Shown one piece after another: positions 19,659 through 57,492 of a stretch of 64,000 nt of DNA. The notes under the pieces are model-generated. The model saw nothing but the letters and a program-made list of their open reading frames with translations. It had not been told where the DNA came from and made no database searches. The position numbers and the translations under genes are program-made. This DNA is from Tumebacillus sp. BK434 (GTDB lineage: Bacteria > Bacillota > Bacilli > Tumebacillales > Tumebacillaceae): positions 62,001-126,000 of the forward strand of contig NZ_SLXS01000004.1 in NCBI RefSeq assembly GCF_004340785.1, in the 5' to 3' direction. The stretch's first letter is position 1. Each line of letters opens with the position of its first letter.

Positions 19659-22600
19659 ATGACTCTCTATGCATTTCCCGCATCGTTCGCTCAGCGCAGG
19701 CTCTGGTTCCTCGATCAACTCTCGCCGGGGAATGCGGCGTATCATATGCCGTTTGCGCTGCATTTGACAGGCGCTTTGGATGCCGGGGCCATGCAGCGCG
19801 CTCTGCAGGAGATCGTGCGGCGGCATGAAACGCTGCGCACGACGTTTCGGGAGACGGACGGGCAGCCGATGCAGATCGTGCGCGAAGCGGCGGAGCTGCC
19901 ACTGATCGTGCAGGATGTGCAGGAGCTGTCCGGGCCGGAGCGCATGGTTCGCGTGCAAGAGCTGATCTTGGCAGAATGCGTGCGCCCGTTTGCGCTGGCG
20001 GAAGACCTGCCGCTGCGCGTCACCTTGTACCGATTGGCGCCGGAGGAGCATGTGCTCCTGTTTGTGCTGCACCATCTCGTCTCGGACGGCTGGTCGAACG
20101 GAGTGATCGCCCGTGAGCTGTCGGCGCTATATTCGGCCTATTCGCTTGGCGTCGACTCGCCGCTTGCGGAGCCGGAGGTGCAGTATGCTGACTTCGCGCA
20201 CTACCAAGGGGAATGGCTGGACAGCGAGGACTATGCGGAGCAACTGGCCTTCTGGAAGCAGACGCTGGCGGGGCATCCGTTTGTCCTGCCGCTGCCGACC
20301 GATCATCCGCGTCCGGCCAAGAGCAGCGGTCGAGGCGGCACGGTGCCGTTCGTTCTCCCTCCCGATCTGACGCAAAAGCTGCGCGGGGTGGCGCTGAGCG
20401 AAGGGGCGACGCTGTTCATGACGCTCCTGACCGCGTTTAACGTGCTGCTGGCCCGCTATGCGGAGGTCCGCGATGTGCTGGTCGGAACGCCTGTCGCCGG
20501 GCGAATCTTGGAAGAGGTGGAAGGGACGGTCGGGCTGTTTGCCAACTCGATCGTGCTGCGCACCGTGCTGCCGGAAGCGGCAACGTTTGCCGATCTGCTG
20601 CAGGGCGTGAAAAAAGCGGCGCTGGCCGCCTACGCGCACCAGGAAATGCCGTTCGAAAAGCTCGTCGAAGAGCTGCAGCCGGAGCGGTCGCTGGGCCTCT
20701 CGCCGCTGTTTCAGGTGATGTTTTCGCTGCAGACGGCATCGGGGCCGCTGCTGGAGCTGCCGGGAGTGGCGGCGACAGAGCTGGAACTGCCGCGCGACTA
20801 TGCCAAATTCGACCTGCTGCTCGACGTGACAGAGACGCCTGAGCAACTGTTGTGCATGCTGGAATACAGCACCGACCTGTTCAAGCGCGAGACGGTGGAA
20901 AAGATGGCCGGGCATCTGTTGACGCTGCTGTACGGCGCGGCAGAAGATCCGCAGAGCTGGTGGCAGGAACTGCCTGGTGAAGCGGTTCCGATCGGGCTGG
21001 TGCGGCACGAGTGGAAGCGGGACGGGAATGCTCCACAGGAATACGTGGCGCCGCGCACGCCGGCCGAAGAGCTGGTCGCCGGGATTTTCGCCGGGGTGCT
21101 GCGGGTGGAGCGCGTCGGCGCCCATGACGATTTCTTTGCGCTCGGCGGGCATTCGCTGCTCGGAGCGCAGGCGATGTCGCGGATTCGCACGGCGTTTGGC
21201 GTTTCCGTCCCGCTCGATGTACTGTTTGAGACGCCGACGGCAGCCGAGGTGGCGGCAAAGGTGGAGAAGATGCTGCAGACGGCGGGCAGTGCGGACGGCG
21301 GCAGCGCGTCGCTGGTGCCGGTGTCGCGGGACGGGGAGTTGGCCTTGTCGTTTGCTCAGCAGCGTTTGTATGTGCTTCATCAGATCTTGACGGAGAAGTC
21401 GGCGTATAACATGCCATACGCGGTGCGGCTCGCCGGATCGCTCGACGTGGCCGCACTGGAAGAGAGTCTGGCGGAGATCATCAGACGGCATGAAGCGCTG
21501 CGCACGACGTTTGCCGAAGCGGCGTTCGGCCCGGTGCAGGTGATCGCGCCGGAGGGGGCGATGCCGCTTGCTGTGACCGATCTGAGCGGGTTGGAAGCTG
21601 TGGCGCGGGAGCAGGAGTGGAGGCAACGGGTGCAGGCGGAAGCGGAGACGGCGTTCGATCTGCAGAAGGGGCCGCTGGTGCGCTGTTCCTTGCTGAAGCT
21701 GAACGAAGCAGAGCATATTTTGATGCTCAACTTCCACCACATCGTGTTTGACGGCTGGTCGGTCGGCGTGTTCATTCGCGAGCTGACCGCTTTGTACAGC
21801 GGTGAGCAGTTGCCGGAGCGGGCGCTGCAGTACGCCGACTTTGCCGCCTGGCAACGGGAATGGCTGTCCGGCGAAGTGCTGGAAGAGCAGTTGTTATATT
21901 GGAAGAAACAGCTTGGCGGAGAACTGCCGCTGCTGGAATTGCCGACCGACCGTCCGCGTCCGCAGGTACAGACCTATGCGGGGGCGATGCTGCCGTTCCG
22001 TTTCGGGAAGGAGTTGACGGCGGAGCTGAAGCGGTGGAGTCAAGAGCAGCAGGCGACGCTGTTCATGACCTTGATCGCCGGATTCACGGCGCTTTTGCAC
22101 CGCTATTCAGGGCAGGAGGACATCTGTGTCGGGACGCCGATCGCCGGGCGCAACCGGGAAGAAATCGAGGAGATGATCGGCTTCTTCGTCAATACGCTGG
22201 TCTTGCGCAGCGACTTCTCGGCCAATCCGAAGTTCTCCGAGCTGGTCGCGCAAGTGCGCCAGACGTCGTTGGGCGCGTATGCGCATCAGGATGTGCCGTT
22301 TGAGATGCTCGTCAAGGAGCTGCAGCCGGCGCGCAACATGAGCGCGTCACCGCTGTTTCAGGCGATGTTTGTTCTGCAAAACGCCCATCTGGAAAAAGTC
22401 GCCTTGCCCGGCCTGACGCTGGAGCCGTTGGAGTTGGAAGGGCGTACGGCGAAGTTCGACCTGCTCGTCTCGTTGTCCGAAACGGACGGAGAGCTCGTTG
22501 GCACCTGGGAGTACAACACCGACCTGTTTGACGAAGCCACGATGCTCCGGATGATCGGCCATTTTGAGACGCTCGTCGGAGCGATTACCGCCGGGACGGA

Positions 22601-24542
22601 TCTGCCGGTCGGGGAGATCGGATTGCTGACGGAGCAGGAGATCGCGGAAGTTGCACCCTCCCCGGAGACGCAGACGGTGCCCGAGCAGCTGTTGCAAGAG
22701 CTGTTTGAAGAGCAGGCAGCAAAGACGCCGGACGGCTTGGCGCTGGTGATGGGCGAGCAGGAGATGACCTACCGCGAGCTGAACGAGGAAGCGAACCGTC
22801 TGGCCCGGCATTTGCAAGCGCTGGGCGCCGGGCCGAACATGCCGGTCGGGCTCTCGATGGAGCGCTCGCCGGAGATGATCACGGGGCTGCTGGCGATCTT
22901 AAAGGCGGGCGGATGCTATGTGCCGCTCGACCCGGCCTACCCCAGAGAGCGTCTGGAGCTGATGGTGCAGGGATCGCAGCTGACGATCCTGCTGACCAAC
23001 TGCGCCGATGCGGGCTGGGATGCCACCGTTGCCTCCGTGATCGACGTGGAGCGCGATCGTGCACAGTGGGCAGCGTATGGCGCGGAGAATCCGGCCTATC
23101 AGCTGACACAGGAGCATCTCGCCTACGTCCTCTATACCTCAGGTTCGACCGGCATCCCCAAAGGGGTCGCCATGCCGGGGCGGGCGCTGGCCAACCTGGC
23201 GGTCTGGCAGCGGCGGGACGCACGCATTCCGCAGGCGAGAACGCTGCAGTTCACCTCGCTGAATTTTGACGTGTCGTCACAGGAGATCTTCGCCACGCTC
23301 TGCGCGGGCGGCACGCTGGTGCTGATCCCGGAGGCGATGCGCAAAGACCTGTCCCAACTGCCGAAGCTGGTGCAAGAGCAAGGGGTCGAGCGGATGTACA
23401 TGCCGTTTGTCGCTTTGCAGCACGTGGCGGAGCTGTGCGTGGAGCAAAACATGCACCTGCCTGCGCTGCGAGAGGTGATGACGGCAGGCGAGCAGCTGCA
23501 GATCACGCCGGTCGTGCGCGAATTCTTCAAACGCCACCGGGAGTGCCTGCTGTATAACCAATACGGTCCGACCGAAACGCATGTCGTCACGTCGCATCGC
23601 CTGGAAGGTCCGGCCGAACAGTGGACGCTGCTGCCTTCGCTGGGCAAGGCGATCACGAACACGAGCGCGCTGGTGCTCGACGCCCGCCTGCAGCCGGTGC
23701 CGATCGGCGTGCGCGGCGAGATCTGCATCGGCGGCGTGTCGGTGGCGCACGGGTATCTGCAGCGGGAGGATCTGACGGCGGAACGTTTTGTCAACTCGCC
23801 GTATGGACGGCTGTACAAAACGGGCGATATCGGGCGGTTGCTGCTGGACGGCACGATCGAATACCTCGGCCGCCTCGATCATCAAGTCAAGATCCGCGGG
23901 CACCGCATCGAGCTCGGCGAGATCGAAGCGACGCTCAACTTGCATGCCGATGTACGGGAGGCGGTCGTCACCGCCCGCGCCGACTTGCCCGGCGGCGGCA
24001 AGCGACTGGCCGCCTACGTGGTGCCGCAGCCGGACAGTGCCAGCGGCCCGGCCGAGTGGCGCGAATTCCTCCGTGCCAAGCTGCCCGACTACATGGTGCC
24101 GTCGGCGTTTGCCGTGGTGGAACAGTTCCCGCTGACCCCGAGCGGCAAAGTTGACCGCAAGGCGCTGCCGGCGCCAACCGCCGCACCGAGCACGGCCGAA
24201 GCGGGCGACCAAGCTCCGCAAAATGAGATCGAGCGGCAACTGGTCGAGATCTGGTCACAGCTACTCGGCGTGGAGCGGGTGGGGATTCATGATAATTTCT
24301 TCGATCTGGGCGGCGATTCGCTCCTGATCTTGCAATTGCACAAGCAGCTCGTGCCGCAATTCCCGCACAAAGAGCTGACCGTAGTCGAGCTGTTCCGCCA
24401 CCCGACGATTCACACGCTGGCGTCTTTCCTCGCCGTGGAGACGGTCGAACAGCCCGATTTTGAAGAGGTCGAGAACCGCGTTGAGAAACAAAAAGAAATG
24501 CTGGCACGGCGCAAACAGATGATGAAGGGCAGGAGAGGATAA
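19659..24542 (+). CDS. NRPS protein, C-T-C-A-T (first gene of half 1)
   Basis: Layout of the 1,627 residues: C1 (about 5-435; HHLVSDG at 138-144), carrier T1 (GGHSLL, phosphopantetheine Ser499), C2 (about 555-985; HHIVFDG from 693), A (about 1010-1500; YTSGSTGIPKG, NQYGPTE), T2 (GGDSLL, Ser1554). Module 1 has no A domain at all, so T1 must be charged in trans or receive a ready-made starter. By eye against GrsA, the A pocket reads D-V-Q-Y-M-A-Q-V-V-K, close to proline-type codes (DVQ-x-I-A-H-V-V-K). The tail is basic, with RRKQMMKGR, a feature shared only with the other NRPS protein that precedes a PKS. It lies three bases before the PKS gene. A GAAGGGA ribosome site sits 12 bases before ATG. 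Confidence 0.93.
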   Translation: MTLYAFPASFAQRRLWFLDQLSPGNAAYHMPFALHLTGALDAGAMQRALQEIVRRHETLRTTFRETDGQPMQIVREAAELPLIVQDVQELSGPERMVRVQELILAECVRPFALAEDLPLRVTLYRLAPEEHVLLFVLHHLVSDGWSNGVIARELSALYSAYSLGVDSPLAEPEVQYADFAHYQGEWLDSEDYAEQLAFWKQTLAGHPFVLPLPTDHPRPAKSSGRGGTVPFVLPPDLTQKLRGVALSEGATLFMTLLTAFNVLLARYAEVRDVLVGTPVAGRILEEVEGTVGLFANSIVLRTVLPEAATFADLLQGVKKAALAAYAHQEMPFEKLVEELQPERSLGLSPLFQVMFSLQTASGPLLELPGVAATELELPRDYAKFDLLLDVTETPEQLLCMLEYSTDLFKRETVEKMAGHLLTLLYGAAEDPQSWWQELPGEAVPIGLVRHEWKRDGNAPQEYVAPRTPAEELVAGIFAGVLRVERVGAHDDFFALGGHSLLGAQAMSRIRTAFGVSVPLDVLFETPTAAEVAAKVEKMLQTAGSADGGSASLVPVSRDGELALSFAQQRLYVLHQILTEKSAYNMPYAVRLAGSLDVAALEESLAEIIRRHEALRTTFAEAAFGPVQVIAPEGAMPLAVTDLSGLEAVAREQEWRQRVQAEAETAFDLQKGPLVRCSLLKLNEAEHILMLNFHHIVFDGWSVGVFIRELTALYSGEQLPERALQYADFAAWQREWLSGEVLEEQLLYWKKQLGGELPLLELPTDRPRPQVQTYAGAMLPFRFGKELTAELKRWSQEQQATLFMTLIAGFTALLHRYSGQEDICVGTPIAGRNREEIEEMIGFFVNTLVLRSDFSANPKFSELVAQVRQTSLGAYAHQDVPFEMLVKELQPARNMSASPLFQAMFVLQNAHLEKVALPGLTLEPLELEGRTAKFDLLVSLSETDGELVGTWEYNTDLFDEATMLRMIGHFETLVGAITAGTDLPVGEIGLLTEQEIAEVAPSPETQTVPEQLLQELFEEQAAKTPDGLALVMGEQEMTYRELNEEANRLARHLQALGAGPNMPVGLSMERSPEMITGLLAILKAGGCYVPLDPAYPRERLELMVQGSQLTILLTNCADAGWDATVASVIDVERDRAQWAAYGAENPAYQLTQEHLAYVLYTSGSTGIPKGVAMPGRALANLAVWQRRDARIPQARTLQFTSLNFDVSSQEIFATLCAGGTLVLIPEAMRKDLSQLPKLVQEQGVERMYMPFVALQHVAELCVEQNMHLPALREVMTAGEQLQITPVVREFFKRHRECLLYNQYGPTETHVVTSHRLEGPAEQWTLLPSLGKAITNTSALVLDARLQPVPIGVRGEICIGGVSVAHGYLQREDLTAERFVNSPYGRLYKTGDIGRLLLDGTIEYLGRLDHQVKIRGHRIELGEIEATLNLHADVREAVVTARADLPGGGKRLAAYVVPQPDSASGPAEWREFLRAKLPDYMVPSAFAVVEQFPLTPSGKVDRKALPAPTAAPSTAEAGDQAPQNEIERQLVEIWSQLLGVERVGIHDNFFDLGGDSLLILQLHKQLVPQFPHKELTVVELFRHPTIHTLASFLAVETVEQPDFEEVENRVEKQKEMLARRKQMMKGRRG

Positions 24543-24545
24543 GCC

Positions 24546-27500
24546 ATGAGCAACGCATTGATGGAAGGAATTGCGATCATCGGCATGTCGGGGCGGTTTC
24601 CCGGCGCGGAGAATCTCGAAGCATTTTGGGAGAATTTGAAAAACGGGGTGGAGTCGATCTCCGATTTCACCGACGAGGAGCTGAAAGCAGCGCTGGTCTC
24701 CGAACAGCTGCTCCAGCACCCGAACTACGTGAAGCGCGGCGGCGTGCTGCAAGGCGCCGACCGCTTCGACGCCGAGTTCTTCGGCTACACCCCGCGCGAG
24801 GCGGAGATCACCGACCCGCAGCAGCGCGTCTTTTTGGAAGCGGCGTGGGGGGCGCTGGAGCATGCCGGCTATGATGCGGAGCGCTACGCCGGGGCGATTG
24901 GCGTGTTCGGCGGGGCGGCGAGCAACCGCCACGAGACGATGTACCTCGCGGCGAACCAGGACGTGGTGGCGGCGATGGGGCCGCTGCAGGCTTTGATGGG
25001 CGTTTCGCGCGACTTTTTGGCGACCCGCGTCTCTTACAAGCTCAACCTGACCGGCCCGGCGGCGACGGTGCTCACCGCCTGTTCGACCGGCCTCGTCGCC
25101 GTGCATCAGGCTTGCCAGAGCCTCTTGATGTATGAATGCGACATGGCGCTGGCCGGTGGTGTGGCGGTGACCTTGCCGCAAAAACAAGGCTACCTCTATC
25201 AGGAAGGCGGCATCATGTCGCCGGACGGTCACTGCCGCACGTTTGATGAAGCGGCCAAAGGCACCGTGCCGGGCGAAGGCGTCGGCGTGGTCGTGCTGAA
25301 GCGCCTCGACGACGCGCTGGCTGACGGCGACACGATCCATGCGGTGATCAAAGGCACGGCGATCAACAACGACGGCTCGATGAAAGTCGGCTACACCGCG
25401 CCGAGCACCGACGGTCAGGCGCAGGCGATCGCCCAGGCACAATTGCTGGCCGGGGTGGAGCCGGACACGATCTCCTACGTGGAAGCGCACGGCACGGCGA
25501 CCGTCTTGGGCGACCCGATCGAAGTGGCGGCGCTGACGCAGGTGTTCCGCAACAAGACCGACCGCGAGCAATTCTGCGCGCTGGGCTCGGTCAAGTCGAA
25601 CATCGGGCACGCCGACGCGGCGGCCGGCGTGGCCGGTCTGATCAAGACGGTCTTGGCGCTGCAGCACAAGCAACTGCCGCCGTCTCTGCATTTTGAAAAA
25701 GGCAACCCGGGCATCCCGTTCTCCGCTTCGCCGTTCTATGTCAATCATGAGCTGAAAGAGTGGAAATCGGACGGCCCGCGCCGCGCCGGGGTCTCGTCCT
25801 TCGGCATCGGCGGCACGAACGCGCACGTGGTGCTGGAAGAGGCGCCGGCGGCGGAAGTGTCGGCAGCAGCTGCGGAGCATCAATTGCTCGTCCTCTCTGC
25901 GAAGACTCCTACCGCCTTGGAAGCGGCGGCCCGGAACCTGCAGGCGCATCTCGGCACACACCGGGAGCAGGCGCTGGCCGACGTGGCCTACACGCTGCAA
26001 AAAGGGCGCAAGGCGTTCCCGCACCGCCTCTTTGCGGTCGCCGGCAGCCATGAGGAAGCGGCGAACCTGCTTCTGACCTCCGATGACGAATTGACCGGCA
26101 AAGGATCGCTGCTGGCGGGCGAAGATGAGCTGGAGCGCTCCGTCGTGTTTCTCTTCCCGGGCCAAGGGGCGCAATATGTGAACATGGGCCGCGACTTGTA
26201 TCAGGCCGAAGCGGTGTTCCGCGAATCTGTCGACCGCGCGGCTGAGCTGTTGGTGCCGCACCTCGACCTGGACCTGCGCACCGTCTTGTATCCGGCAGCG
26301 GGGCAGGAAGCGTCGGCACAGGAACGGCTGACGCAGACCCGCCTGACCCAGCCTGCCCTGTTTGTGATCGAATACGCGCTGGCCCAGCTCTGGCTGTCCA
26401 AAGGCATCGCCCCGAAGGCGATGCTCGGCCACTCGATCGGCGAATATGTCGCCGCTTGCCTCGCCGGCGTGTTCACGCTGGAAGCAGCGTTGGAGCTGGT
26501 CGCGGCGCGCGGCGCGATGATGCAGGAGCTGCCCAGCGGCTCGATGCTCGCGGTGATTCTCTCTGAAGAAAAACTGCGCCTGCTGCTCCCGGCCAACCTG
26601 TCTCTCGCCGCCGTCAACGGGCCGAACGCCTGCGTGGTGTCGGGCGAGCATGAGGCGGTCGCCGCATTCGAAGCGGCGCTGGAGCAGCAAAACATCTCCT
26701 CGCGCCGTTTGGAGACTTCCCACGCGTTCCACTCCGCAATGATGGAGCCGATGCTCGACGCCTTTTTGGCCAAAGTGCAAGGAGTTGAACGGAACGCACC
26801 GCAACTGCCGTACCTCTCCAATGTCAGCGGCACATGGATCACCGGCGAGCAGGCGACCGACCCGTCCTACTGGGTGACACACCTGCGGGAGGCGGTGCGC
26901 TTTGCCGACAATGTGCAGGCACTGCTCGGCCATGCCTCGCACGTCTACCTCGAAGTCGGGCCGGGCAATGCGCTGGGCAAGATGGTGAAGCAGACGGCGA
27001 CCGCCGCGCAAGGGCAGGCGGACACCGTCGCCACCCTGCGCCACCGCAGCGAAACTTTGCATGACGGCAAGGCGTGGCTGCGCGCGGTCGGTAAGCTCTG
27101 GGCGGCGGGCGTGGAGATCGACTGGAACGCGCTGTATGGTGCAGACGAGCAGCGCCTGCGCGTGCCGCTGCCGACCTACCCGTTTGAAGGCAAGTCTTAC
27201 ATGCTGCAGCCGGGCGTGCCGGGCACGTCGAAACACTCGCTCGCCAAGCAGAAAAACGTCGCCGACTGGTACTACGTCCCGGTCTGGAAGCAAGCCCATC
27301 TGAGCGCTGCCGCTCTGGACGCACCGAAGCGCTGGCTGGTGTTCCTCGACGATGCCGGATTCGGCGGCGAGGTGGTCAAAGAGCTGCTGGCCGAAGGGCA
27401 GGAGGTGGTCTCGGTCGTCGCTGACGATCATTTCTCCCGTCTGGAAGACAACGTGTACGGCCTCGACCTGCGCAGCCGCGAACAGTACGGCGAGCTGCTC

Positions 27501-29108
27501 AAGGAGCTGCAGCTGGCCGGGCAGATGCCGGAGCGCATCGCGCATTTGGGGGCGCTGTCCGAACTGGCGGACAGCGACACCGGGCTCGACCGCTTCGAAG
27601 CGGCGCAAGAGCGTGGCCTGCATGCGCTGGTCTATCTGGCGCAGGCGATCACCGACCAGGGCTTTGCGGAAGGGATCGAGATCATCGTCATCACCAACAA
27701 CCTGCAGGAGGTGACGGGTGGTGAAGTGTTTGCGCCGGAGCGGGCGACGCTGCTCGGCGCGTGCAAAGTCATCCCGCAGGAGTATCCGTCCCTGTCGATT
27801 CGCACGGTCGACCTCAACCTGCCCTATGCAGGAGCACCGCAGGCGGCCGATTGTGTGGAGCAGGCGGCGGAAGAGCTGCTGTCTGTGGCGACGGAGGAGC
27901 ATGTCGCCTATCGCGGACATACCCGCTTTGTGCAGACGCTGGAAAAAACGTCGTTGCAGCAGGCGGCGAAGCGAGGGCGCGAACTGCGCCAAGGCGCGGT
28001 CTACCTGGTCACCGGCGGCGCAGACGGCACGGCGCAGCAGCTGACCGAGCATCTCTTGCAGGAAGTCGGCGCCAAGGTGGCGCTGGTCTGCCCGGAAGCG
28101 GAGCGCGCGGCGCTGGAGCAGCAGCTCAGCCACCATGCCGACCTGCTCTGCATCGGCGGGGATGTCACCCAACTGGGCGAGATGCAGGCGGCGGTTGCGC
28201 AGGCCCGAGCGCATTTTGGCGATCTGAACGGGGTGTTCCATGCCGCGGTGAACAAAGGCATGGGCATGATGCAGTTCAAGACGCCGGACGCGATCGCCGA
28301 GGGGCTGGATGAAAAAGTGAAAGGGGCGCTCGTGCTCGATGCGGCGCTCGACGGCGCGGAGCTTGATTTTGTCGTGCTGTTCGCTTCGACGATCGGCTTG
28401 GTCGGCGGCTTGGGTGCGCTGGAAAATGCGGCGGCGAGCTTGTTCCTCGACGCGTATGCCCGCGTCAAGACGGCAAACGGCACCCGCGCTTATGCGATCG
28501 ACTGGAGCATCTGGAAGTGGGAGACCTGGCTGGAAGAGCGGATGGGCAACAATCCGGCGGTGCAGGCGCACATGAAGCAGATGCGTGAAGACTACGGCAT
28601 GACGCGGGCGGAAGGCATGGCTGCCTTGACTGCGGTGCTCGGCAGCGGCTTGACGCAGGTGATCGTGTCGACGCAAAATCTGCACGCCGTGATCGAGAAC
28701 CAGCAGGCCTACACGATGGGCGCGTTCTCCCAAGGCGGCGTGGACGCATCGCTGCGCAAGGAAGGCGATGCCGATTATGTCGCACCGCGCAATGAGACGG
28801 AAGAGAAGATCGCAGGCATCTTAGGCGAGCTGTTTGGCGTAGGCTCGGTCTCAGTGCTCGACAACTTCTTCGAACTGGGCGGCAACTCGCTGTTGGCGAT
28901 TCAATTGGTGGCGCGGATTCGTCAGGAGTTTATGGTCGAGCTGCCGATGGATGAGTTCTTCGCAGCGCCGACGATCGCAGGCCTCGCCGAGCGCGTGGCG
29001 CAGACGGGGCTGGCGCAGGAGGAGCTCGACGAGTTGGAGCGCTTGCTCGGCGAGATTGAAGACCTCGATCTGGATGAAGTGCAGGCTCGCCTGCTCAGCG
29101 AGCAGTAA
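24546..29108 (+). CDS. Type I PKS, KS-AT-KR-ACP (half 1)
   Basis: The 1,520 residues hold KS (about 5-430) with Cys179 (TACST), His315 (EAHGTAT) and His355 (NIGHAD); malonyl-type AT (about 535-830) with Ser630 (GHSIGE) and the malonate motif HAFH at 726; a KR-like region (about 1145-1340); and ACP with Ser1448 (GGNSLL). It should add one malonate-derived C2 unit to the peptide from the upstream NRPS. In the KR the position of the catalytic Tyr is Asn1294 and the following Asn is Ser1298. The cofactor loop reads TGGADGTAQ instead of TGGxGxxG, so ketoreduction is improbable. It ends in an acidic helix (LLGEIEDLDLDEVQARLL), probably a docking element for the next protein. Confidence 0.93.
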   Translation: MSNALMEGIAIIGMSGRFPGAENLEAFWENLKNGVESISDFTDEELKAALVSEQLLQHPNYVKRGGVLQGADRFDAEFFGYTPREAEITDPQQRVFLEAAWGALEHAGYDAERYAGAIGVFGGAASNRHETMYLAANQDVVAAMGPLQALMGVSRDFLATRVSYKLNLTGPAATVLTACSTGLVAVHQACQSLLMYECDMALAGGVAVTLPQKQGYLYQEGGIMSPDGHCRTFDEAAKGTVPGEGVGVVVLKRLDDALADGDTIHAVIKGTAINNDGSMKVGYTAPSTDGQAQAIAQAQLLAGVEPDTISYVEAHGTATVLGDPIEVAALTQVFRNKTDREQFCALGSVKSNIGHADAAAGVAGLIKTVLALQHKQLPPSLHFEKGNPGIPFSASPFYVNHELKEWKSDGPRRAGVSSFGIGGTNAHVVLEEAPAAEVSAAAAEHQLLVLSAKTPTALEAAARNLQAHLGTHREQALADVAYTLQKGRKAFPHRLFAVAGSHEEAANLLLTSDDELTGKGSLLAGEDELERSVVFLFPGQGAQYVNMGRDLYQAEAVFRESVDRAAELLVPHLDLDLRTVLYPAAGQEASAQERLTQTRLTQPALFVIEYALAQLWLSKGIAPKAMLGHSIGEYVAACLAGVFTLEAALELVAARGAMMQELPSGSMLAVILSEEKLRLLLPANLSLAAVNGPNACVVSGEHEAVAAFEAALEQQNISSRRLETSHAFHSAMMEPMLDAFLAKVQGVERNAPQLPYLSNVSGTWITGEQATDPSYWVTHLREAVRFADNVQALLGHASHVYLEVGPGNALGKMVKQTATAAQGQADTVATLRHRSETLHDGKAWLRAVGKLWAAGVEIDWNALYGADEQRLRVPLPTYPFEGKSYMLQPGVPGTSKHSLAKQKNVADWYYVPVWKQAHLSAAALDAPKRWLVFLDDAGFGGEVVKELLAEGQEVVSVVADDHFSRLEDNVYGLDLRSREQYGELLKELQLAGQMPERIAHLGALSELADSDTGLDRFEAAQERGLHALVYLAQAITDQGFAEGIEIIVITNNLQEVTGGEVFAPERATLLGACKVIPQEYPSLSIRTVDLNLPYAGAPQAADCVEQAAEELLSVATEEHVAYRGHTRFVQTLEKTSLQQAAKRGRELRQGAVYLVTGGADGTAQQLTEHLLQEVGAKVALVCPEAERAALEQQLSHHADLLCIGGDVTQLGEMQAAVAQARAHFGDLNGVFHAAVNKGMGMMQFKTPDAIAEGLDEKVKGALVLDAALDGAELDFVVLFASTIGLVGGLGALENAAASLFLDAYARVKTANGTRAYAIDWSIWKWETWLEERMGNNPAVQAHMKQMREDYGMTRAEGMAALTAVLGSGLTQVIVSTQNLHAVIENQQAYTMGAFSQGGVDASLRKEGDADYVAPRNETEEKIAGILGELFGVGSVSVLDNFFELGGNSLLAIQLVARIRQEFMVELPMDEFFAAPTIAGLAERVAQTGLAQEELDELERLLGEIEDLDLDEVQARLLSEQ

Positions 29109-29126: not shown

Positions 29127-30605
29127 ATGGATGACTTGCAGAAACGTCTGGCAGCCTTGCCGCCGGAGAAGCGCAAACTGCTGGAACTGGCTCTGAAACA
29201 AAAGGGCATCGACGTGTCGAAAGCGGCTCCGAAGCAGGACGGCATCCCGGTGCGCGGACATGACGGGCCGAGCCCGCTGTCGATCGACCAGCTGCGCCTG
29301 TGGGAGAGCTATCAGCGGACGCCCGATGATCCGCGCCACAACAACTACAACGCCCAACTGATCACAGGTCCGCTCAATGCGGACGCCTTGCTGAACGCCT
29401 ACCGGGAGATCGTGCGCCGCCATGAAGCGTGGCGCACGGCGTTCCGGGTGATCGACGGCACGCCGAAACAGGTCGTGCTGCCGGAGCTGCCCGTCGAAAT
29501 GGAGCGGATCGACCTGCGCCATCTGCCTGCCGCCAAGCGGCGCGAGGAAGCGAACCGCCTGATGGTAGACGCGACGCGGATTCCGTTCGATGTGACGACG
29601 CCGCCGTTGTTTCGGATTCTGCTCGTGCAGCTCGATGAGGAGGAGCATATCAAGCTGTGGGTGACGCATCATCTGATCACCGACCGGATCACGTACATGG
29701 TGACCGATCAGGAGCTGTTGCAGTATTACATGAGCGAGCTGACCGGAACGCCGCTGCACCTCCCGCTGCCGCAGGTGCAGTATGCCGATTGGGCGGAGTG
29801 GCAGGTGAACTACCTGCAGGGCGAAGTCTTGGAGGAGCTGACTGCGTTTTGGAAAGGGCAGTTGGCGGGCGCCTCGTTACAATTGGACTTTCCCGCCGAC
29901 CATCCCCGCCCGGAGCGGATGAGCTTCGAGGGCAGACGCAAGCATTTCCGGCTGTCGAGCGAGCTGTTTCAAGGCATCAACAGCTTGGCGAAAGCGGAAG
30001 GCGTGACACCGTTTATGGTATTTCTGGCGGCGTATGATGCTCTGCTGCACCTCTATTCGGGGCAGGAGGACATCGTCGTCGGCACGCCGTACGTCAACCG
30101 TTCGCGGATGGAAGTGAAGAGCACGGTCGGGTATTTCCTGACACCGATCGTGTTCCGCGTCGATGTGCACGGCGAAATGTCGTTCCGCGACCTGCTGCAC
30201 AAAGTGAAAGACGTCAACGTGGCGGTGCACAAGCATGCCGACGTTCCGTTCGGGATGCTCGTCGATCTGATGGAGCTGCCGGACGATCCGGGCCGCCATC
30301 CGGTGTTTCAGGCGATGTTCGTACACGTCGATGTCCCAACTGTGCAAGTGCTGGAGGGCATGCCGCTGTCGATCGTCGATCTGGACATCGACGGGTCGAC
30401 ATCGAAGTATGACATCGTTTTTGCGGTGCTCGATGCGAACGAGGAGCCAAAAGGGTTCTGGGAGTTTAACGCTGACCTGTTTGAGCAGGAGACGATCGAG
30501 CGGATCGCTCAGGATATGGAGCGGCTGCTGGAAGCGGTGCTGCAGAATCCGGGGCAAAAATTGGTCGACCTGCCGCTGCGGGTCAGAGAGGAGCAGGCGC
30601 GATGA
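29127..30605 (+). CDS. Free-standing NRPS condensation-domain protein
   Basis: This 492-residue protein is one C domain behind an N-terminal helix, DLQKRLAALPPEKRKLLE, which recurs at the start of three other proteins that follow a PKS here. The C domain is full length (about 45-480). Its active-site motif is HHLITDR (His181-Arg187): the catalytic second His and the Asp are kept but Gly is Arg. No A or T domain is present, so it must act on carrier-bound chains of its neighbours. The next gene itself starts with a C domain and overlaps this stop by four bases (ATGA), giving two consecutive C domains after one PKS. One could catalyse a non-condensation step such as chain cyclisation, dehydration or N-acylation, but this is inference. 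Confidence 0.88.
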   Translation: MDDLQKRLAALPPEKRKLLELALKQKGIDVSKAAPKQDGIPVRGHDGPSPLSIDQLRLWESYQRTPDDPRHNNYNAQLITGPLNADALLNAYREIVRRHEAWRTAFRVIDGTPKQVVLPELPVEMERIDLRHLPAAKRREEANRLMVDATRIPFDVTTPPLFRILLVQLDEEEHIKLWVTHHLITDRITYMVTDQELLQYYMSELTGTPLHLPLPQVQYADWAEWQVNYLQGEVLEELTAFWKGQLAGASLQLDFPADHPRPERMSFEGRRKHFRLSSELFQGINSLAKAEGVTPFMVFLAAYDALLHLYSGQEDIVVGTPYVNRSRMEVKSTVGYFLTPIVFRVDVHGEMSFRDLLHKVKDVNVAVHKHADVPFGMLVDLMELPDDPGRHPVFQAMFVHVDVPTVQVLEGMPLSIVDLDIDGSTSKYDIVFAVLDANEEPKGFWEFNADLFEQETIERIAQDMERLLEAVLQNPGQKLVDLPLRVREEQAR

Positions 30606-33600
30606 AGAGTTTGAGCGATCGCTTGGCTGCATTATCCCCGGAGCAACGGGCGCTGTTGGAAAAGAAGCTGCAGCAGAAAAACATCGACAGCAGCAAGCTC
30701 GCGAAAGCGGAGCCTGCGATTCCGCGCCGCACGTCGGAGGGGCCGGCGCCGCTGTCGGTCGATCAGGAGCGGATCTGGTTCTTCCAGCAGATGGAGCCGA
30801 ACGACCCGGCGTACAACATGTACAGCGTTGTGAAGATCACGGGTGATTTGGACCTGTCGCGGCTGGAGCAAAGCGTCGGAAAGATCGTGGAGCGGCATGA
30901 AGCGCTGCGCACAACGTTTGCGCAGATTGACAGCGAGCCGCGGGCGGTGGTGGCCGAGGCACGGACGGTGCCGCTCGTGGTGCGGGATGCGCGCGGCCTT
31001 GCGGAAGCGGCGGTGCTGGAACAGCTGCTCACCGAGGTGCAGGTACCGTTCGATCTGGAACAGGGGCCTCTGCTGCGGGCGTTTTGCTGGCAGACGGGCG
31101 AGCAGGAGCACGTGTTTTTGCTGATCGTGAATCATCTGGTGAGCGATCACCAGTCGCTGGGGCTGTTCTTTGGCGAGCTGCTGCGGCATTACGAAGGGAT
31201 GGAGCTGCCGGCGGTGCCACTGCGGTATACCGATTTTGCCGAGTGGCAGCGGGAGCAGTTGCAGGGGGATGGAGAGGAAAAGCTGGTGTCCTATTGGAAG
31301 GAGCGGTTGGCAGGGGGCGAATTCGTGCTGAATCTGCCGACCGACCGTCCTCGTCCCGCCGTGCAGACCTATCGCGGGGCGCAAGTGAAAGTTGCGCTGC
31401 CTGAGCGTGTATTGGCCGGCGTGAAAGCGCTCGGCGGCAAGCACGGGGTGTCGCCGTTCATGGTGACGATGGCGGCGTATCAGGCGCTGTTGCACCGCTA
31501 TACGGGGCAGCAGGATGTGCTGGTCGGCACGCCGGTGTCGCTGCGCAAACAGCAGGAGACGCAAGGGGTGATCGGCTTTTTCCTGAACACGATGGTGATC
31601 CGGACGGACGTGTCGCCGGAGTTGAGCGGACTGGATCTGCTGCTGCGCACGAAAGAGGCGGCCACCGGGGCGTTTTCGCATGGGGACATGCCGTTTGGAC
31701 TGCTGCTGGAAGAGATCAAGCCGAAGCGGGACTTGAGCCGGAGTCCGATCTTTCAGGCGATGTTCACCTATGTCGAAGGGGCCGGCGGCGTGCAGGAGCT
31801 GGCCGGATTGACGCTTGAGCCGATGGAGTTTGACGGCGGCACGGCAAAATGCGACCTGTCGCTGACAGTCATGGAATCGGCGGCGGGAGCGGAAGTGCTG
31901 TTCGAGTATGCGTCCGATCTGTTCGACGCGGCGACGATCGAGCGCATGGCAGGCCATTACCTGCAACTGCTCGCCGGCCTGGTGCAGACGCCGGAACGGA
32001 AAGTCGGCGCGTTGCCGCTCTTGACCGACGCGGAGCAGAAGCGACTGCTCGTAGATTGGAACCAGACCCAAGCAGATCTGGAGCCGCAGCGCAGCCTGAG
32101 CATCCAAGCGCAATTCCAGGCACAGGTCGCGCGCACGCCCGATGCGGTGGCTGTGGTGTTTGGCGGTGAGGAGCTGACCTTTGCTGAGCTCGACAGCCGC
32201 GCGAACGCACTTGCGCACCACTTGGTGACCACTTGCGGCGTTGGCCCGTCGATGCGGGTCGCCATCCTCGCCGAGCGTTCGCTCGCCATGATCACCGGCC
32301 TCCTCGGCATCTTAAAAACGGGTGCCGCTTACGTTCCCCTCGATCCGGCCTACCCGGCGGAGCGCGTGGCCTATGTCTTGCAAGACGCAAACGTGCAGGC
32401 GTTGGTGACGCATGAGAAAAATAAGGCGAGCCTGTCGGGATTGTCTGATCTGCCGGTCGTTTCTTTTGATACGATTCCTTCGCTCAGCGGGGAAGTGCCT
32501 GCCCTGGCTGCAACCGACAAGACGGTCGCCTCCGTCAACGACCTTGCGTACATGATTTACACGTCAGGGTCGACAGGACAACCGAAAGGCGTGATGGTGG
32601 AGCAGGGGAATGTGGCGAACTTTTTCGGGGGGATGGATGAACGGATTCAGCCCCAGGAAGGGGAGGTGTTGCTGGCGGCGACCAGCTATGCGTTCGACAT
32701 TTCGGTGCTGGAGCTCTTGTGGACGCTGACCCGCGGCATCAAGACGGTCATCGTGGCCGACCCGGCAGAGCTGCCCGCGCAGGCGGCGAAGCACGGGGTC
32801 ACGCTGCTGCAAGGCACGCCGTCCCTGATGAAGATGGCGCTGGGCAACCCGGCTGCCATCCAGGCCCTGCAAGGCTTGCGGCTGCTGATGCTCGGCGGCG
32901 AAGCGCTGCCGGGCACGCTGGCAAAAGCGATCCGCGAAAAGCTGTCCTGCCGCCTGTTCAACATGTACGGACCGACCGAGACCACCGTCTGGTCATCCAC
33001 GCACGAAGTCCAAACGGATGATCAGGCGATCCAGCCGATCGGCAAACCGATCCTCAACACCGAATTCTACATCCTCGACCCGCACCTGCAGCCGGTGCCG
33101 GTCGGCGTGCCCGGCGAACTGTACATCGGCGGCGCCGGGGTCACGCGCGGCTATTTCGAACGGCCAGATCTGACTGCAGAGCGCTTCCTGCCGAACCCCT
33201 TCACCGGGCAAGGGCGGATCTACCGCACCGGCGATGCGGCGCGCTGGCTGGCCGACGGTGCGGTCGAATACCTCGGCCGCCTCGATCAGCAGGTGAAAGT
33301 CCGCGGGTTCCGCATCGAGCTTGGCGAAGTGGAAGCCAGACTCCACGCTCACCCGGATATCCATGCGGCCGCCGCAGCCGCCATGCCCGATCCGCAAGGC
33401 GACCTGCGTCTGATCGGCTACATCGTCCCGCAGCCGGGCAAGACCGCCCCGGACAGCAGCGCGCTGCGCGCATTTCTGCAGACGGCGCTGCCCGACTACA
33501 TGGTGCCGGCCGCCTTTGTCACGATGGAGAGTCTGCCGTTGACACCAAACGGCAAGCTCGACCGCAAAGCGCTGCCGCAGCCGGACCTGCTCGCCACAAG

Positions 33601-33949
33601 CGACGACACGCCGCCGCAAAACGCAGTGCAGGAAGTCCTCGTCCAGCTGTTCTGTGAACTGCTCGGGCTGGAGCGAGTCTCGCTGTCGGCCAATTTCTTT
33701 GAGATCGGCGGGCACTCGCTGCGCGCCACCCAACTGGTGGCCAGCCTGCAAGGTATTTTCTCGCTCGACCTCACCCTGCACCGCGTGTTCGACCGGGCGA
33801 CGATCCTCGATCTGGAACAGGAACTGCACAGCCTCAGCGACCCGGCGCTACTGGAGACACAAGCCCAAGCCTATCTGCAAAACGGCCTCCGCCAGATGCC
33901 GAACCAAATCCGCGCGCTGGCCCGCCCTTCGCGCAGACGGCAGACATAA
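30602..33949 (+). CDS. NRPS protein, C-A-T, predicted glycine
   Basis: The 1,115 residues comprise a docking-like helix (LSDRLAALSPEQRALLEK), C (about 45-475), A (about 495-965) and T (GGHSLR, Ser1039). The C motif is NHLVSDH (177-183): the catalytic His178 and Asp182 remain, but the first His is Asn and Gly is His, so activity is uncertain. In A, YTSGSTGQPKG and NMYGPTE are intact and the pocket reads by eye D-I-L-Q-M-G-M-V-W-K, very close to the known glycine code DILQLGLIWK. The protein ends in a basic, arginine-rich tail with no thioesterase. It is the last large gene of half 1. Confidence 0.92.
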   Translation: MKSLSDRLAALSPEQRALLEKKLQQKNIDSSKLAKAEPAIPRRTSEGPAPLSVDQERIWFFQQMEPNDPAYNMYSVVKITGDLDLSRLEQSVGKIVERHEALRTTFAQIDSEPRAVVAEARTVPLVVRDARGLAEAAVLEQLLTEVQVPFDLEQGPLLRAFCWQTGEQEHVFLLIVNHLVSDHQSLGLFFGELLRHYEGMELPAVPLRYTDFAEWQREQLQGDGEEKLVSYWKERLAGGEFVLNLPTDRPRPAVQTYRGAQVKVALPERVLAGVKALGGKHGVSPFMVTMAAYQALLHRYTGQQDVLVGTPVSLRKQQETQGVIGFFLNTMVIRTDVSPELSGLDLLLRTKEAATGAFSHGDMPFGLLLEEIKPKRDLSRSPIFQAMFTYVEGAGGVQELAGLTLEPMEFDGGTAKCDLSLTVMESAAGAEVLFEYASDLFDAATIERMAGHYLQLLAGLVQTPERKVGALPLLTDAEQKRLLVDWNQTQADLEPQRSLSIQAQFQAQVARTPDAVAVVFGGEELTFAELDSRANALAHHLVTTCGVGPSMRVAILAERSLAMITGLLGILKTGAAYVPLDPAYPAERVAYVLQDANVQALVTHEKNKASLSGLSDLPVVSFDTIPSLSGEVPALAATDKTVASVNDLAYMIYTSGSTGQPKGVMVEQGNVANFFGGMDERIQPQEGEVLLAATSYAFDISVLELLWTLTRGIKTVIVADPAELPAQAAKHGVTLLQGTPSLMKMALGNPAAIQALQGLRLLMLGGEALPGTLAKAIREKLSCRLFNMYGPTETTVWSSTHEVQTDDQAIQPIGKPILNTEFYILDPHLQPVPVGVPGELYIGGAGVTRGYFERPDLTAERFLPNPFTGQGRIYRTGDAARWLADGAVEYLGRLDQQVKVRGFRIELGEVEARLHAHPDIHAAAAAAMPDPQGDLRLIGYIVPQPGKTAPDSSALRAFLQTALPDYMVPAAFVTMESLPLTPNGKLDRKALPQPDLLATSDDTPPQNAVQEVLVQLFCELLGLERVSLSANFFEIGGHSLRATQLVASLQGIFSLDLTLHRVFDRATILDLEQELHSLSDPALLETQAQAYLQNGLRQMPNQIRALARPSRRRQT

Positions 33950-42555: not shown

Positions 42556-42707
42556 TCTGTTATTTAACAAGTGACTATACAACGATAAAGTCTGGAAAAT
42601 GATCGGATAATGGGTTTTCACACAGTGTATTGATGATGGGGTGAACCGCTGCGAAAATAGCCGTTTGGGCGGTGCTTATTTAAATTGAAAGAGGGTTGAT
42701 CTTAAAG

Positions 42708-51580: not shown

Positions 51581-54500
51581 ATGAGCCATGAGAAGGAGAA
51601 CCAGATGCTCGAAGGAATCGCCATCGTCGGCATGGCCGGCCGCTTTCCGGGCAGCAAAAACATCGCCGAATTCTGGTCGCATCTGCAAAACGGCAACGAG
51701 ACGATCTCCGACTTTACCGAGGAAGAGCTGAAGGCGGCAGGTGTCGATCCTGACCTCATGCAAGACCCGCAGTATGTGAAGCGCGGGGGCTTGCTGCAAG
51801 ACCGCGACCTGTTCGACGCCAACTTTTTCGACTATACCGCGAAAGAAGCGGAAGTGACCGACCCGTCGCACCGCCTGTTTTTGGAGACGGCGTGGGAAGC
51901 GCTGGAGACGGCCGGCTATGACGCCGAGCAGTATCCGGGGCGGATCGGCGTGTACGGCGGCGTGGGCCAGAACAGCTTTTCCTATCATCTGTACGGCAAC
52001 CCCGGCGTGTTTGGGCAGATCGGGGCGCTGCAGGCGACGCTTGCGACTTCGTATGATTTCCTCGCGACGCGCGTCGCCTACAAACTCAATCTGACCGGTC
52101 CGGCGATCACCTTGCAGACCGCCTGCTCCACGTCGCTGGTGGCGGTGCACCAAGCCTGCCAGCAGCTGTTGATGCATGAGTGTGACATGGCGCTGGCCGG
52201 CGGCGTGGCGATCAAGCTGCTCGAAGCGGAAGGGTATCTGTATCAGGAAGGCAGCATTTTGTCGCCTGACGGGCATTGCCGGGCGTTTGACGAACAGGCG
52301 CAAGGCACGATCGGCGGCGACGGGGTCGGCGTGGTGGTGTTAAAGCGTCTGGAGGATGCGCTCGAAGACGGCGACAGCATCTATGCTGTGATCCGCGGGT
52401 CGGCGGTCAACAACGACGGCGCGGGCAAAATCGGCTTTACCGCTCCCAGCGTCGACGGGCAGGCGCAAGTCATCCTCGACGCGCTGGCGGTGGCCGGGGT
52501 GGAAGCGGACTCGATCGCTTACATCGAGACGCATGGCACCGGCACGCCGCTCGGCGATCCGATTGAGATCGCGGCGCTGACCAACGCCTACCGCGAGAGC
52601 ACCGACCGCGTGGGATATTGCGCGCTGGGCTCGCTGAAGACGAACATCGGCCACCTCGATGCAGCGGCCGGCGTGACCGGGCTGATCAAAGCGGCGCTGA
52701 TGCTGCAGCACGGGCAGCTGGTGCCGAGCCTGCATTTTGAAAAAGCGAATCCGAAGCTGGGCATTGAGTCTTCTCCGTTCTATGTGAACACGGAGCTGAA
52801 AAGCTGGACGCGCGGCGTTGAACCGCGTCGCGCCGGGGTCTCGTCGTTTGGCATGGGCGGGACGAACGCGCATGTGGTGCTGGAGGAAGCACCGCACGCA
52901 ACCGCTTCCTCCGAATCGTCGCGCAAGTGGAAACTGCTCGTCTTGTCGGCCAAAACGGGGTCTGCCCTGAACGCGGCAACGGAGAACCTGGCAGCGCATC
53001 TGCAGGCCAATCCGCAGGCGGAGCTGGCGGACGTGGCGTTCACGCTGCAGACGGGACGCCGGGCGTTCGATCACCGCCGCGTGGTAGCGGTGGAAAGCCA
53101 CGCCGACGCGGTGGCAGCGCTGGAAGCGATGGACAGCAAGCGCGTGCTGACGGGCGAAGCGCAGACGCGCGACCGCTCGGTCGTGTTCCTTTTCCCCGGG
53201 CAAGGCGCGCAGTATGTGAACATGGGGCTGGATCTGTACCGGGAGGAGCCGGTGTTCCGCGAGCAGGTCGATGCTTGCGCAGAAGCGCTGCAGCCGACGC
53301 TTGGCGTTGATTTGCGCGACGTGCTTTACCCGTCTGCCGACCGCGTGGAGCAAGCGGGCGAACTGCTCCGCCAGACCTATCTCACACAGCCGGCTCTGTT
53401 CGTGATCGAATATGCGCTGGCGAAGTTGTGGATGGAGCTTGGCGTGCAGCCGGACGCGATGCTCGGACATTCGATCGGGGAGTATGTGGCGGCCGTCTTC
53501 GCCGGTGTGATGTCGCTGGAGGACGCGCTGCAGCTGGTCGCGATGCGCGGCAAGCTGATGCAGTCCTTGCCGGAGGGCACGATGCTGGCCGTACCGCTTA
53601 CCGAAGCGGAAGTGCTGCCGCTGCTCGGCGCCGGATTGTCGCTGGCGGCGGTGAACGGGCCGCGCGCCTGCGTGGTCGCCGGAACCACGGAAGCGGTGCA
53701 ACAACTGGAGGCGCAACTGCAAGCGCAGGAAGTGGAGTGCAGACGTTTGGTGACTTCGCATGCGTTCCACTCGGAGATGATGGACCCGATTCTCGCGGCG
53801 TTTGCGGAAGCGGTGCAAGAGGTGGAACTGCACGCGCCGCAACTGGCCTACCTCTCCAACGTGTCGGGCACCTGGATCACGGCGGAGGAAGCGACCGACC
53901 CGGCGTACTGGGTCAAGCATCTGCGCGGTACGGTGCGCTTTGCCGACAACGTGCGCGAACTGCTGCAAGAGCCGGGACGCCTGTTCCTCGAAGTCGGCCC
54001 GGGGCGTTCGCTGATCGGCCTGACCCGCCAGCAGGTGGCGGCAGAAGGGGCGCAGGAAGTCTTGCTCTCCTCGCTGCGCCACCGCGACGAGCAGTTGTCC
54101 GATGCGGCGTTCCTGCTCACCGCGCTCGGCAAGCTCTGGCTGTCCGGGCTGAAGATCGACTGGACGCTGCTCTACCCGGGCGAGACGCGCCATCGTCTGG
54201 CGCTGCCGACCTACCCGTTTGAGCGCAAGCGCTACTGGCTGGAGCGCAAGGCGGGCGCCGCCGCCAAAATCCAGCGCAAGAAGGCGGACATCGCCGACTG
54301 GTTCTATGTGCCAACGTGGAAGAAATCGCTCCTGATCGCAGACGAAGCGACAGACGCGCAACGGTGGCTTTTGTTCCTCGACGAGACGGGAACGGGCGCC
54401 AAGCTGGCCGAGCGCCTGACTGAAGCCGGACACCGCGTGGTGACGGTCGCAGCCGGGGCGTCTTTTGCCAAAACGGAGGCGGACGCCTACACCGTGCATC

Positions 54501-56217: not shown

Positions 56218-57492
56218 ATGAACGATCTGAACAAACGACTTGCCGCCCTGTCGCCCGAACAGCGTGCCCTGCTCGAAAAACAGCTGAAAAAACAAGGCCT
56301 CGACACTCTCGTCAAAAAAGAGGAGAGCGGCACCATCGCCGTCACCCTCCCCGGCGCCGCCAGCTCTCAGCCCGGCTTCAAAGGCACGGGCCTGCAAAAG
56401 AAAGAGCGCGACCCGAACAAAGGGATGGACTTCTCTCTCTACTTCTTCTCCGGCGACGGCAGCACCGCGTCCCGTGACAAATACCAACTGCTCCTCGACT
56501 GCGCCAAGCACGGGGATGAACACGGCTATGCGGCGGTCTGGACGCCGGAGCGCCATTTTCAAGACTTTGGCGGTCTCTATCCCAACCCGGCGGTGCTCTC
56601 CGCCGCCCTCGCCATGGTCACGAAAAACATCGAGCTGCGCGCCGGATCTGTCGCCATCCCGCTGCATCACCCGATCCGCGTGGCAGAAGAGTGGTCGGTC
56701 GTCGACAACCTGTCCGGCGGCCGCATCGCGATCTGCGCCGCATCCGGCTGGCATCCGAACGACTTCATCCTGTCACCCAAGCCGAACCTGGAGTATTACA
56801 AAAACCGCCGCAACGAGATGATCGACGCGCTGGATACGATCCAGCGGCTCTGGCAGGGCGAGACGGTGACGATGACCGGCATCGACGGCGAGGAAGTCTC
56901 GACGCGCATCTTGCCGCGCCCGATCCAGCAGCACCTCGAGTTCTGGTTCGCCTCCCAAGGCGCTCCGGAGACGCTGATCAAAGCGGGTGAGATGGGTGGC
57001 CATATCCTGACCGGCCTCGTCAACCAGCCGCTCCATGAGCTGGAGCAAAAGATCAAGCTCTATCGCGACGCCCGCGCCAAAGCGGGACACGACCCGGAGA
57101 AAGGCAAGGTGGCGGTGATGCTGCACACCTTCCTTGGCACCGACAACAACACCGTCAAAGAGCAGGCCCGCCAGCCGCTCACCAGCTACCTGCGCACCTT
57201 CCTGCGCCAACAGGACAATTTCAAAAGCGACTTCGACCTCGCCACCGAAGCGGACAAAGACGCACTGGTTGCGTTTGCTTATGAGCGCTATTTCGAAGAG
57301 AGCACGCTGCTCGGCACGGTCGACAAATGTGAGACGCTGATCAACAACCTGATCGACATCGGCGTCACCGAAGTGGCCTGCCTCGTCGACTTCGGCCTCG
57401 CGCCGGAGACGGTGCTCGAAGGGCTGCAGCACCTGAATGAACTGCAAGAGCGTTACCGCATCAAACTTAGCGTGCAGGGGGTGCAATCGTAA
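56218..57492 (+). CDS. Luciferase-like flavin monooxygenase (MupA/Atu3671 type) with docking helix
   Basis: The first 30 of the 424 residues (LNKRLAALSPEQRALLEKQ) copy the docking-like helix seen on the C-domain and NRPS proteins that follow a PKS here. A linker and then a bacterial-luciferase-like TIM barrel follow (about 60-400), with MDFSLYFFSGD, VWTPERHFQDFGGLYPNP, the HHPIRVAEEWSVVDNLSGGR segment and CAASGWHPNDF. This is the LLM subfamily often embedded in PKS/NRPS proteins (mupirocin MupA, MSnat). It uses reduced flavin and O2. The tag and its place between PKS and NRPS suggest that it oxidises the ACP-bound chain, for example next to the unreduced ketone. The reaction itself is inference. 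The stop overlaps the next start (TAATG). Confidence 0.88.
   Translation: MNDLNKRLAALSPEQRALLEKQLKKQGLDTLVKKEESGTIAVTLPGAASSQPGFKGTGLQKKERDPNKGMDFSLYFFSGDGSTASRDKYQLLLDCAKHGDEHGYAAVWTPERHFQDFGGLYPNPAVLSAALAMVTKNIELRAGSVAIPLHHPIRVAEEWSVVDNLSGGRIAICAASGWHPNDFILSPKPNLEYYKNRRNEMIDALDTIQRLWQGETVTMTGIDGEEVSTRILPRPIQQHLEFWFASQGAPETLIKAGEMGGHILTGLVNQPLHELEQKIKLYRDARAKAGHDPEKGKVAVMLHTFLGTDNNTVKEQARQPLTSYLRTFLRQQDNFKSDFDLATEADKDALVAFAYERYFEESTLLGTVDKCETLINNLIDIGVTEVACLVDFGLAPETVLEGLQHLNELQERYRIKLSVQGVQS

Follow-up and report, generated by a model that had tools for sequence, protein, structure and literature searches.

Why a free-standing condensation (C) domain should be encoded between a PKS and an NRPS that opens with a C domain of its own is the question raised by this locus of Tumebacillus sp. 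BK434. The window, the whole 64,000-nucleotide stretch analysed here (C4:62001-126000 of the source genome, G000), contains an operon with the lone C domain, half 1, and a second PKS/NRPS line, half 2. The half 1 operon comprises four genes, all on the forward strand, which encode C-T-C-A-T, KS-AT-KR-ACP, the lone C domain, and C-A-PCP in this order. Pfam matches define the C-T-C-A-T protein (19659..24542, +) and the PKS (24546..29108, +). The former opens with a C-T pair that lacks an A domain (19659-21270), and its A domain carries the code DVQYMAQVV, which we take to be proline-like. From the end of the PKS at 29108, 18 bases lead to the lone C gene (29127-30605, +), whose stop is overlapped by 4 bases by the start of the downstream NRPS at 30602. 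The ORF, its Pfam match, and its neighbours thus confirm the arrangement named in the original prediction, a lone C domain between PKS and NRPS and directly before another C domain. No TE is found in a domain reading of the operon's genes. A secreted C39 peptidase upstream and a membrane-anchored hydrolase downstream were considered as cluster enzymes and set aside on their export or anchor sequences, recognized by eye, and on their presence beside the operon in the relatives as well.

The ORF has an ATG start and encodes 492 residues, with a single Pfam family, Condensation (PF00668), at residues 50-488 (E=1.2e-86, 291.7 bits against a cut-off of 30.6). Its active-site motif (29667..29687, +) reads H181-H182-L-I-T-D186-R187. 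The catalytic second His, His182, and the Asp of the HHxxxD motif of PF00668 are present, so the predicted catalytic His is indeed intact, and Arg187 replaces the Gly of the canonical LCL motif HHxxxDG. The gene and both same-genus orthologues share HHLITDR, and Arg57, His182, and Asp186 are invariant in 14/14 rows of the lone C alignment. Motif C5, GYFLTP (30129..30146, +), has Thr where Asn is usual. The DxxxxD motif of heterocyclisation (Cy) domains is absent, since the lone C domain reads HHLITDR. With these residues in place, the domain is predicted to be catalytically competent. In the alignment, it ends at the C-A linker.

An AlphaFold2 model built from the 14-row alignment (pLDDT 86.8) shows the full two-lobed C fold. 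Its best PDB match is Txo2 (6p1j; Z 45.1, rmsd 2.2 Å over 436 residues), and the 50 matches listed span Z 37.7-45.1, including FscG (7kvw, Z 43.5) and the dehydrating AmbE domain (Z 38.1); fold alone cannot separate the C-domain subtypes. The nearest solved sequence is that of TycC (2jgp, E=3.8e-58). At the N-terminus (29127..29213, +), the model predicts helices at residues 2-9 and 13-25 (pLDDT 67-76) and no strand before residue 48, in a region of modest confidence (residues 1-40, pLDDT 55-76 by blocks). We propose this region as a docking element.

The gene is conserved in both same-genus genomes searched (G001 and G002), with 90% and 83% identity, and the four operon genes keep an identical order in these genomes. 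Its dN/dS over the three genome pairs is 0.121, 0.088, and 0.084, the lowest among the operon's four genes in two of the three pairs, and that of the downstream C domain is 0.133, 0.142, and 0.121; dS exceeds 1 in the pairs with G002, which makes those ratios rough. Both domains are under purifying selection. The orthologues, the conserved order, and the low dN/dS show that the lone C gene is not a chance ORF. At 34 positions conserved among its kin the lone C domain is altered, eight of them with a negative BLOSUM62 score.

Relatives were sought at several depths. A scan of contigs of named genomes found only Tumebacillus avium close to the lone C domain, the other seven loci being 27-35% identical. 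In a class sample of 398 genomes, 13 matches above 700 bits were obtained in seven genomes, and all 13 are domains with Arg at motif position 7 (hereafter DR, for HHxxxDR); three candidates per genome were scored in this sample, so that further copies, the lone C domain of the window among them, are missing from the matches. A phylum sample of 398 genomes at E 1e-165 matched the source genome only, and a search in the genus of G146 gave matches in three of five. The source genome (4.65 Mb) has a very large NRPS load, with at least 111 C-domain matches among 179 candidates.

The Arg at position 7 turned out to define a group. We collected 207 C and E rows from stretches of G000, G001, G002, and G005, the last from another genus of the same family; 206 are readable at position 7. 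Arg is found there in 13/206, and Thr in motif C5 (FLT, in place of the FVN that accompanies canonical HHxxxDG) accompanies it in 13/13, compared with 1/193 of the others. Within the fetched stretches of G000, 4 of the 157 rows read are of DR type. Three domains from another family bring the DR clade to 16 domains in seven genomes. In a FastTree of 202 domains, the 13 DR rows are split off by a branch with support 99, with the downstream C domain adjacent (100). Masking the six motif residues and adding the three other-family domains (82-row quick tree) gave 91 for the DR group and 99 for this group plus the downstream C domain; the corresponding values in a careful 33-row tree with the motif masked are 99/99 and 100/99. 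The downstream C domain is therefore the next relative of the DR clade, and the 99/99 branch between the two argues against a recent duplication. The lone C stem is the longest within the clade (0.97 versus 0.26-0.45 in the 33-row tree). Uniting both groups of lone C domains (the second is described below) as one clade is not rejected by an AU test (p 0.654); the constrained tree is 10.8 log units better than the 82-row quick tree, which is thus not the best one.

The original prediction had proposed phylogenetic placement among C-domain subtypes as a check. Labelled by gene architecture rather than by curated subtype references or DHC sequences, the trees place the lone C domain inside the LCL-like radiation, far from the E and after-E rows, in its own DR clade and not in the ordinary LCL group. 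C domains that follow other PKS modules (C1:594483, C1:788435, C4:187741, and those in G003 and G135) are DGWS types and are placed elsewhere. Among the seven A domains that come directly after a DR domain, the codes vary, and two are Thr-like (three other-family A codes stand outside this count). DR therefore does not go with a single acceptor, and a Gly acceptor is rejected as its cause.

What the DR domains share is the PKS upstream. All 16 are preceded by KS-AT-KR-T, six directly (two lone C groups in three genomes) and ten after a luciferase-like monooxygenase (LLM). In 16/16, Asn replaces the catalytic Tyr of the KR, a position that we assign from the general active-site pattern; in the operon's PKS the active-site stretch is FASTIGLVGGLGALENAAASLFLD (28380..28451, +). 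The three other KR proteins aligned have Tyr (one) or Pro (two). By gene order, the donor carrier of the lone C domain is the PKS ACP, and the missing catalytic Tyr makes a β-ketoacyl-ACP the probable donor. A β-keto donor as the sole cause of DR was considered and is not borne out: the PKS proteins with a Pro-type KR (C1:589893 and C4:181813) precede ordinary DGWS domains, as do PKS modules without a KR, and in G266 a KR-less PKS precedes a DYWS domain. As other PKS proteins with a non-functional KR precede ordinary C domains, DR may only mark descent shared with one PKS lineage. Judged by sequence, HHxxxDR/FLT marks a non-canonical C-domain clade that travels with one kind of PKS.

The position of the lone C domain has a counterpart in half 2 of the window. 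There, a KS-AT-KR-ACP protein (51581..56203, +; Pfam, KR alignment), again with Asn for Tyr in its KR and an acidic tail, is followed by an LLM of family TIGR04020 with the same helix type (56218..57492, +) and by an NRPS of domains C-A-T-E (57492..62216, +), whose first C domain is of DR type (HHIVMDR). The order PKS, LLM, C(DR)-A-T recurs in a third G000 line, in G005, and in three genomes that belong to a different family; the order PKS, lone DR C domain is found in the half 1 operon and in a second operon on contig C1. Acidic tails (net charge -7 to -14 over the last 34 residues) end the PKS proteins before the six lone DR C domains and the ten LLM proteins, the tail in half 1, a proposed docking tail after the ACP, being at 29001..29108 (+; charge -10). 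Neither the LLM nor the lone C domain has an acidic tail of its own, and the NRPS that follows either of them starts with the helix type that accompanies acidic tails. We interpret this as one ACP that would serve two clients by docking. The exchangeable enzyme slot after the PKS that the original prediction saw in both halves is well supported: it is filled by an LLM or a lone C domain, with a shared helix type and the same acidic PKS tails.

The half 2 NRPS carries the A code DVVQFALIY here and the Thr-like DFWNIGMVH in G001 and G002; its C domain is better conserved than the whole protein, and an A-domain exchange is possible. In the first gene of half 2, the A domain is preceded by an N-terminal stretch of some 180 residues (42696-43245) that by eye resembles a shrunken C lobe without an HH motif, and a similar lobe is present in G001 and G002. 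The third G000 line (C4:137925-155932) reads A-T-C-A-T, PKS, LLM, C(DR)-A-T, C-A-T, has no TE, and adjoins genes of lantibiotic type on the opposite strand, for a dehydratase, a cyclase, and an ABC transporter.

The claim that both slot enzymes carry the same docking helix stands in part. The N-terminal helix of the lone C domain matches that of the half 2 LLM at 19/29 positions and that of the downstream C-A-PCP protein at 18/29, a gap too small to rank the two. Across genomes, the figure is 19-20/29 for the LLM helices of half 2 and of the other family, each in three genomes, and 17-18/29 for the downstream C domain; values are lower for the third-line LLM (13/29), the DR C-A-T proteins (11-15/29), and the second lone C domain (14-15/29), the N-terminus of the G005 LLM being left out of these counts. 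The likeness to the LLM therefore holds, and exclusivity to the slot does not, as the helix type is also found on the downstream NRPS and at other gene starts. Nor is the helix PKS-specific, since the type follows acidic-tailed NRPS carriers too. Over 73 junctions that do not lead into a KS, tail charge and N-terminus charge are anticorrelated (Spearman -0.38, p 0.001), with related genomes repeating junctions, so that the 73 rows are not independent.

The downstream protein (30602..33949, +; Pfam), a C-A-PCP with a 39-residue tail, no TE, and its own helix of the same type, has the Gly-like A code DILQMGMVW; the A domain is Gly-like in G000 and G002, the two genomes in which it was read. Its C domain has the motif NHLVSDH (31130..31150, +), in which the second His is kept, and the relatives read HHIVSDH and HHIVSDN. 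The catalytic His is thus present in 3/3 genomes, and the motif departs from the usual one at position 7 in 3/3 and at position 1 in 1/3 (G000). In FscG, the residue after the motif Asp lies at the acceptor, HHxxxDE accompanies Gly, and altered motifs occur more often where the acceptor is small (PMC8097023); by analogy, a Gly acceptor could explain the His or Asn at position 7 here. The original prediction would have given way to a simple replacement if an ordinary LCL domain stood before a dead downstream C domain. The data point the other way, to a downstream domain that appears functional by its motif and its dN/dS. A tetramic acid, from a β-keto chain and Gly without a TE, was considered as the product; this is a guess from the architecture.

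A second lone DR C domain is encoded at C1:252831-254273 in G000, with counterparts in G001 and G002. It is preceded by an A-T-C-A-T protein, whose first A region appears to resemble a fatty acyl ligase, and then by KS-AT-KR-T, and has no adjoining C-A-T. Between it and the next NRPS, which is on the same strand, lie 0.5-1.1 kb that contain a small ORF, and in G001 an ORF of 154 residues lies within this gap on the other strand. The small ORF that follows the second lone C domain is conserved, with the core LEELDRR. In G002 (C1:2668080-2675252), the NRPS after the second lone C domain opens with a truncated C domain in which the motif is lost (HPVITAEW); the matching first C domain in G000 reads HQIISDA. 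A further lone C domain, in a hybrid line of G003 (L123 12345-13850), is of DGWS type, lies outside the DR clade, and follows a PKS whose KR has Tyr. Its helix matches that of the window's lone C domain at 13/29 positions, and the next gene found by Pfam, adjacent and on the opposite strand, encodes an AcrB-like transporter.

As the best explanation, to which we give a probability of about 40%, we propose that the lone C domain carries out acyl transfer in trans, with the PKS ACP as the source of the chain and the downstream Gly-PCP as its simplest destination. The N-terminal helix of the lone C domain would dock on the acidic tail that ends the upstream PKS, and the domain would take the chain, probably as β-ketoacyl-ACP, and pass it in trans to a nucleophile, for which the glycyl-PCP of the following protein is the simplest candidate. 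Amide formation would be carried or shared by the lone C domain, with the downstream C domain acting as partner or gate. The gene may have arisen by truncation of a C-A-T protein that followed a PKS, since the lone C domain ends at the C-A linker, where such a protein would end if cut behind its C domain. Several observations run against this proposal. The downstream C domain, with its His in 3/3 genomes, the same helix type, and a sequence under selection, may condense by itself; the long stem and altered positions of the lone C domain suggest a changed role; no C-A-T adjoins the second lone DR C domain; and a β-keto donor does not itself require DR. Acyl transfer in trans is nevertheless favoured over tailoring and over release of the chain. 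In tailoring, the lone C domain would stand in for the LLM and modify the chain on the ACP, for instance by acyl transfer onto the ketide or by its ring closure, and the downstream C domain would then join Gly. We regard this as possible but somewhat unlikely. It accounts for the LLM place and the LLM-like helix (19/29), for a downstream C domain that is intact and under selection, and for the long stem and the 34 altered conserved positions, which suggest a changed job; moreover, since the helix type that accompanies acidic tails is present on the LLM as well as on the NRPS behind it, two clients per ACP may be a general plan. The chemistry, however, is not indicated, and the DR kin inside C-A-T proteins resemble ordinary condensing domains and presumably condense in ordinary fashion. 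As to dehydration, most dehydrating C domains (modAA/DHC) are placed with the D-clade (PMC10880069), the lone C domain groups with neither E nor after-E rows in trees that contained no DHC sequence, and a KR without Tyr would leave no β-hydroxyl to remove. The original prediction had suggested modification in place of chain extension; the slot it described is retained here, and the preference is not, because condensation in trans onto Gly-PCP fits equally.

The remaining readings fare less well. If the lone C domain released the chain, by cyclising it or by transfer to water or to a soluble amine or alcohol, the lack of a TE in the stretches read of three lines with a lone C domain after a PKS (half 1, the C1 line A-T-C-A-T/KS-AT-KR-T/C, and G003) would be explained, and the transporter gene in G003 and the C1 gap before the next NRPS would fit. 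Precedents are described for OaaC with free amines (PMC13142362), the enacyloxin domain Bamb_5915 (PMC13324335, PMC9113145), and a glidonin C domain that adds putrescine (PMC10587159). Release is still rather improbable for half 1, where the next gene overlaps by 4 bases and encodes a complete C-A-PCP, a module that earlier release would waste; the next NRPS in C1 is on the same strand, and the G003 domain is DGWS, outside the DR clade, in a line whose start lies beyond the stretch read. More doubtful again is an ordinary split module, in which recombination freed a C domain that now replaces a dead downstream one. The place of the lone C domain among LCL-like domains, TycC as its nearest solved sequence, its end at the C-A linker, and the unusual downstream motif at position 7 and, in G000, position 1 are all consistent with it, but the downstream His and dN/dS and the 99/99 branch between the two domains are not. 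That the gene is a functionless leftover, as its position beside an apparently redundant C domain might suggest, is very improbable, given that it is intact in 3/3 genomes under the purifying selection described above, with a purine-rich, ribosome-binding-like stretch ahead of its ATG and little space between it and the genes on either side.

Known systems share parts of this arrangement. The LCL C domains of TycC module 6, FscG C3, and Txo2 have the fold and the catalytic His and Asp in common with the lone C domain, whose Arg57 may correspond to the gating Arg of FscG. In contrast to these three, the lone C domain is a separate gene after a PKS and has HHxxxDR and FLT instead of HHxxxDG and FVN. 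Bamb_5915 of the enacyloxin system is likewise a free C domain that docks on a carrier of a PKS line via short termini and moves a chain in trans; it is described as using a β-hairpin docking domain and releasing the final chain (PMC9113145, PMC13324335). Its N-terminal docking domain is α-β-β-α-α, whereas the lone C model has only the two helices, predicted in a region of modest pLDDT, and another module follows the lone C domain. OaaC-type domains are also free-standing, take an ACP-bound acyl donor, and mostly have a non-Gly residue after the motif Asp. Their motif is reported as (D/H)HxxxDS or DA, with Ser in 42%, Ala in 36%, and Gly in 17%, their nearest relatives as starter C domains, and their acceptors as soluble amines (PMC13142362). 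The lone C domain differs in having DR rather than DS or DA, in being LCL-like, and in lying inside a modular line. A soluble acceptor is also reported as usable by streptothricin ORF18, with HQxxxDM (PMC11546977).

The BurF C domain and SgcC5-type domains resemble the lone C domain in grouping with LCL while acting on a polyketide chain beside a PKS. BurF C is described as part of a large protein that forms an ester between two carrier-bound chains (PMC12304814), and such a carrier-bound ester acceptor is not evident at the lone C locus. The TIGR04020 LLM of PKS/NRPS lines (PMC8739492) shares gene position and helix type in the sister lines, and its fold and chemistry, those of a flavin oxygenase, are unrelated. 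By gene position alone, the lone C domain fits the Hybrid C class of NaPDoS2. In a literature search with few subscription journals, none of the titles and abstract openings among the matches listed gives an account of such an arrangement.

Free-standing C domains and trans-acting enzymes are already known. On a wider reading, which is speculative and which we consider unlikely as a whole, the acidic ACP tail of one KR-dead PKS lineage would be a docking hub with one exchangeable place, taken by an LLM or a free HHxxxDR C domain, and with the NRPS docking on the same tail; HHxxxDR/FLT would be a subtype of its own for those chains, and the action of its free members on the ACP-bound chain would be acyl transfer, ring closure, or release and not extension. 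The DR/FLT signature is a sequence marker that searches for HHxxxDG overlook. The docking and transfer steps are accessible with small proteins, and if an oxygenase and a C domain alternate in nature at one PKS-to-NRPS junction via one helix type, such a series would constitute a ready exchange point for the engineering of hybrid assembly lines.
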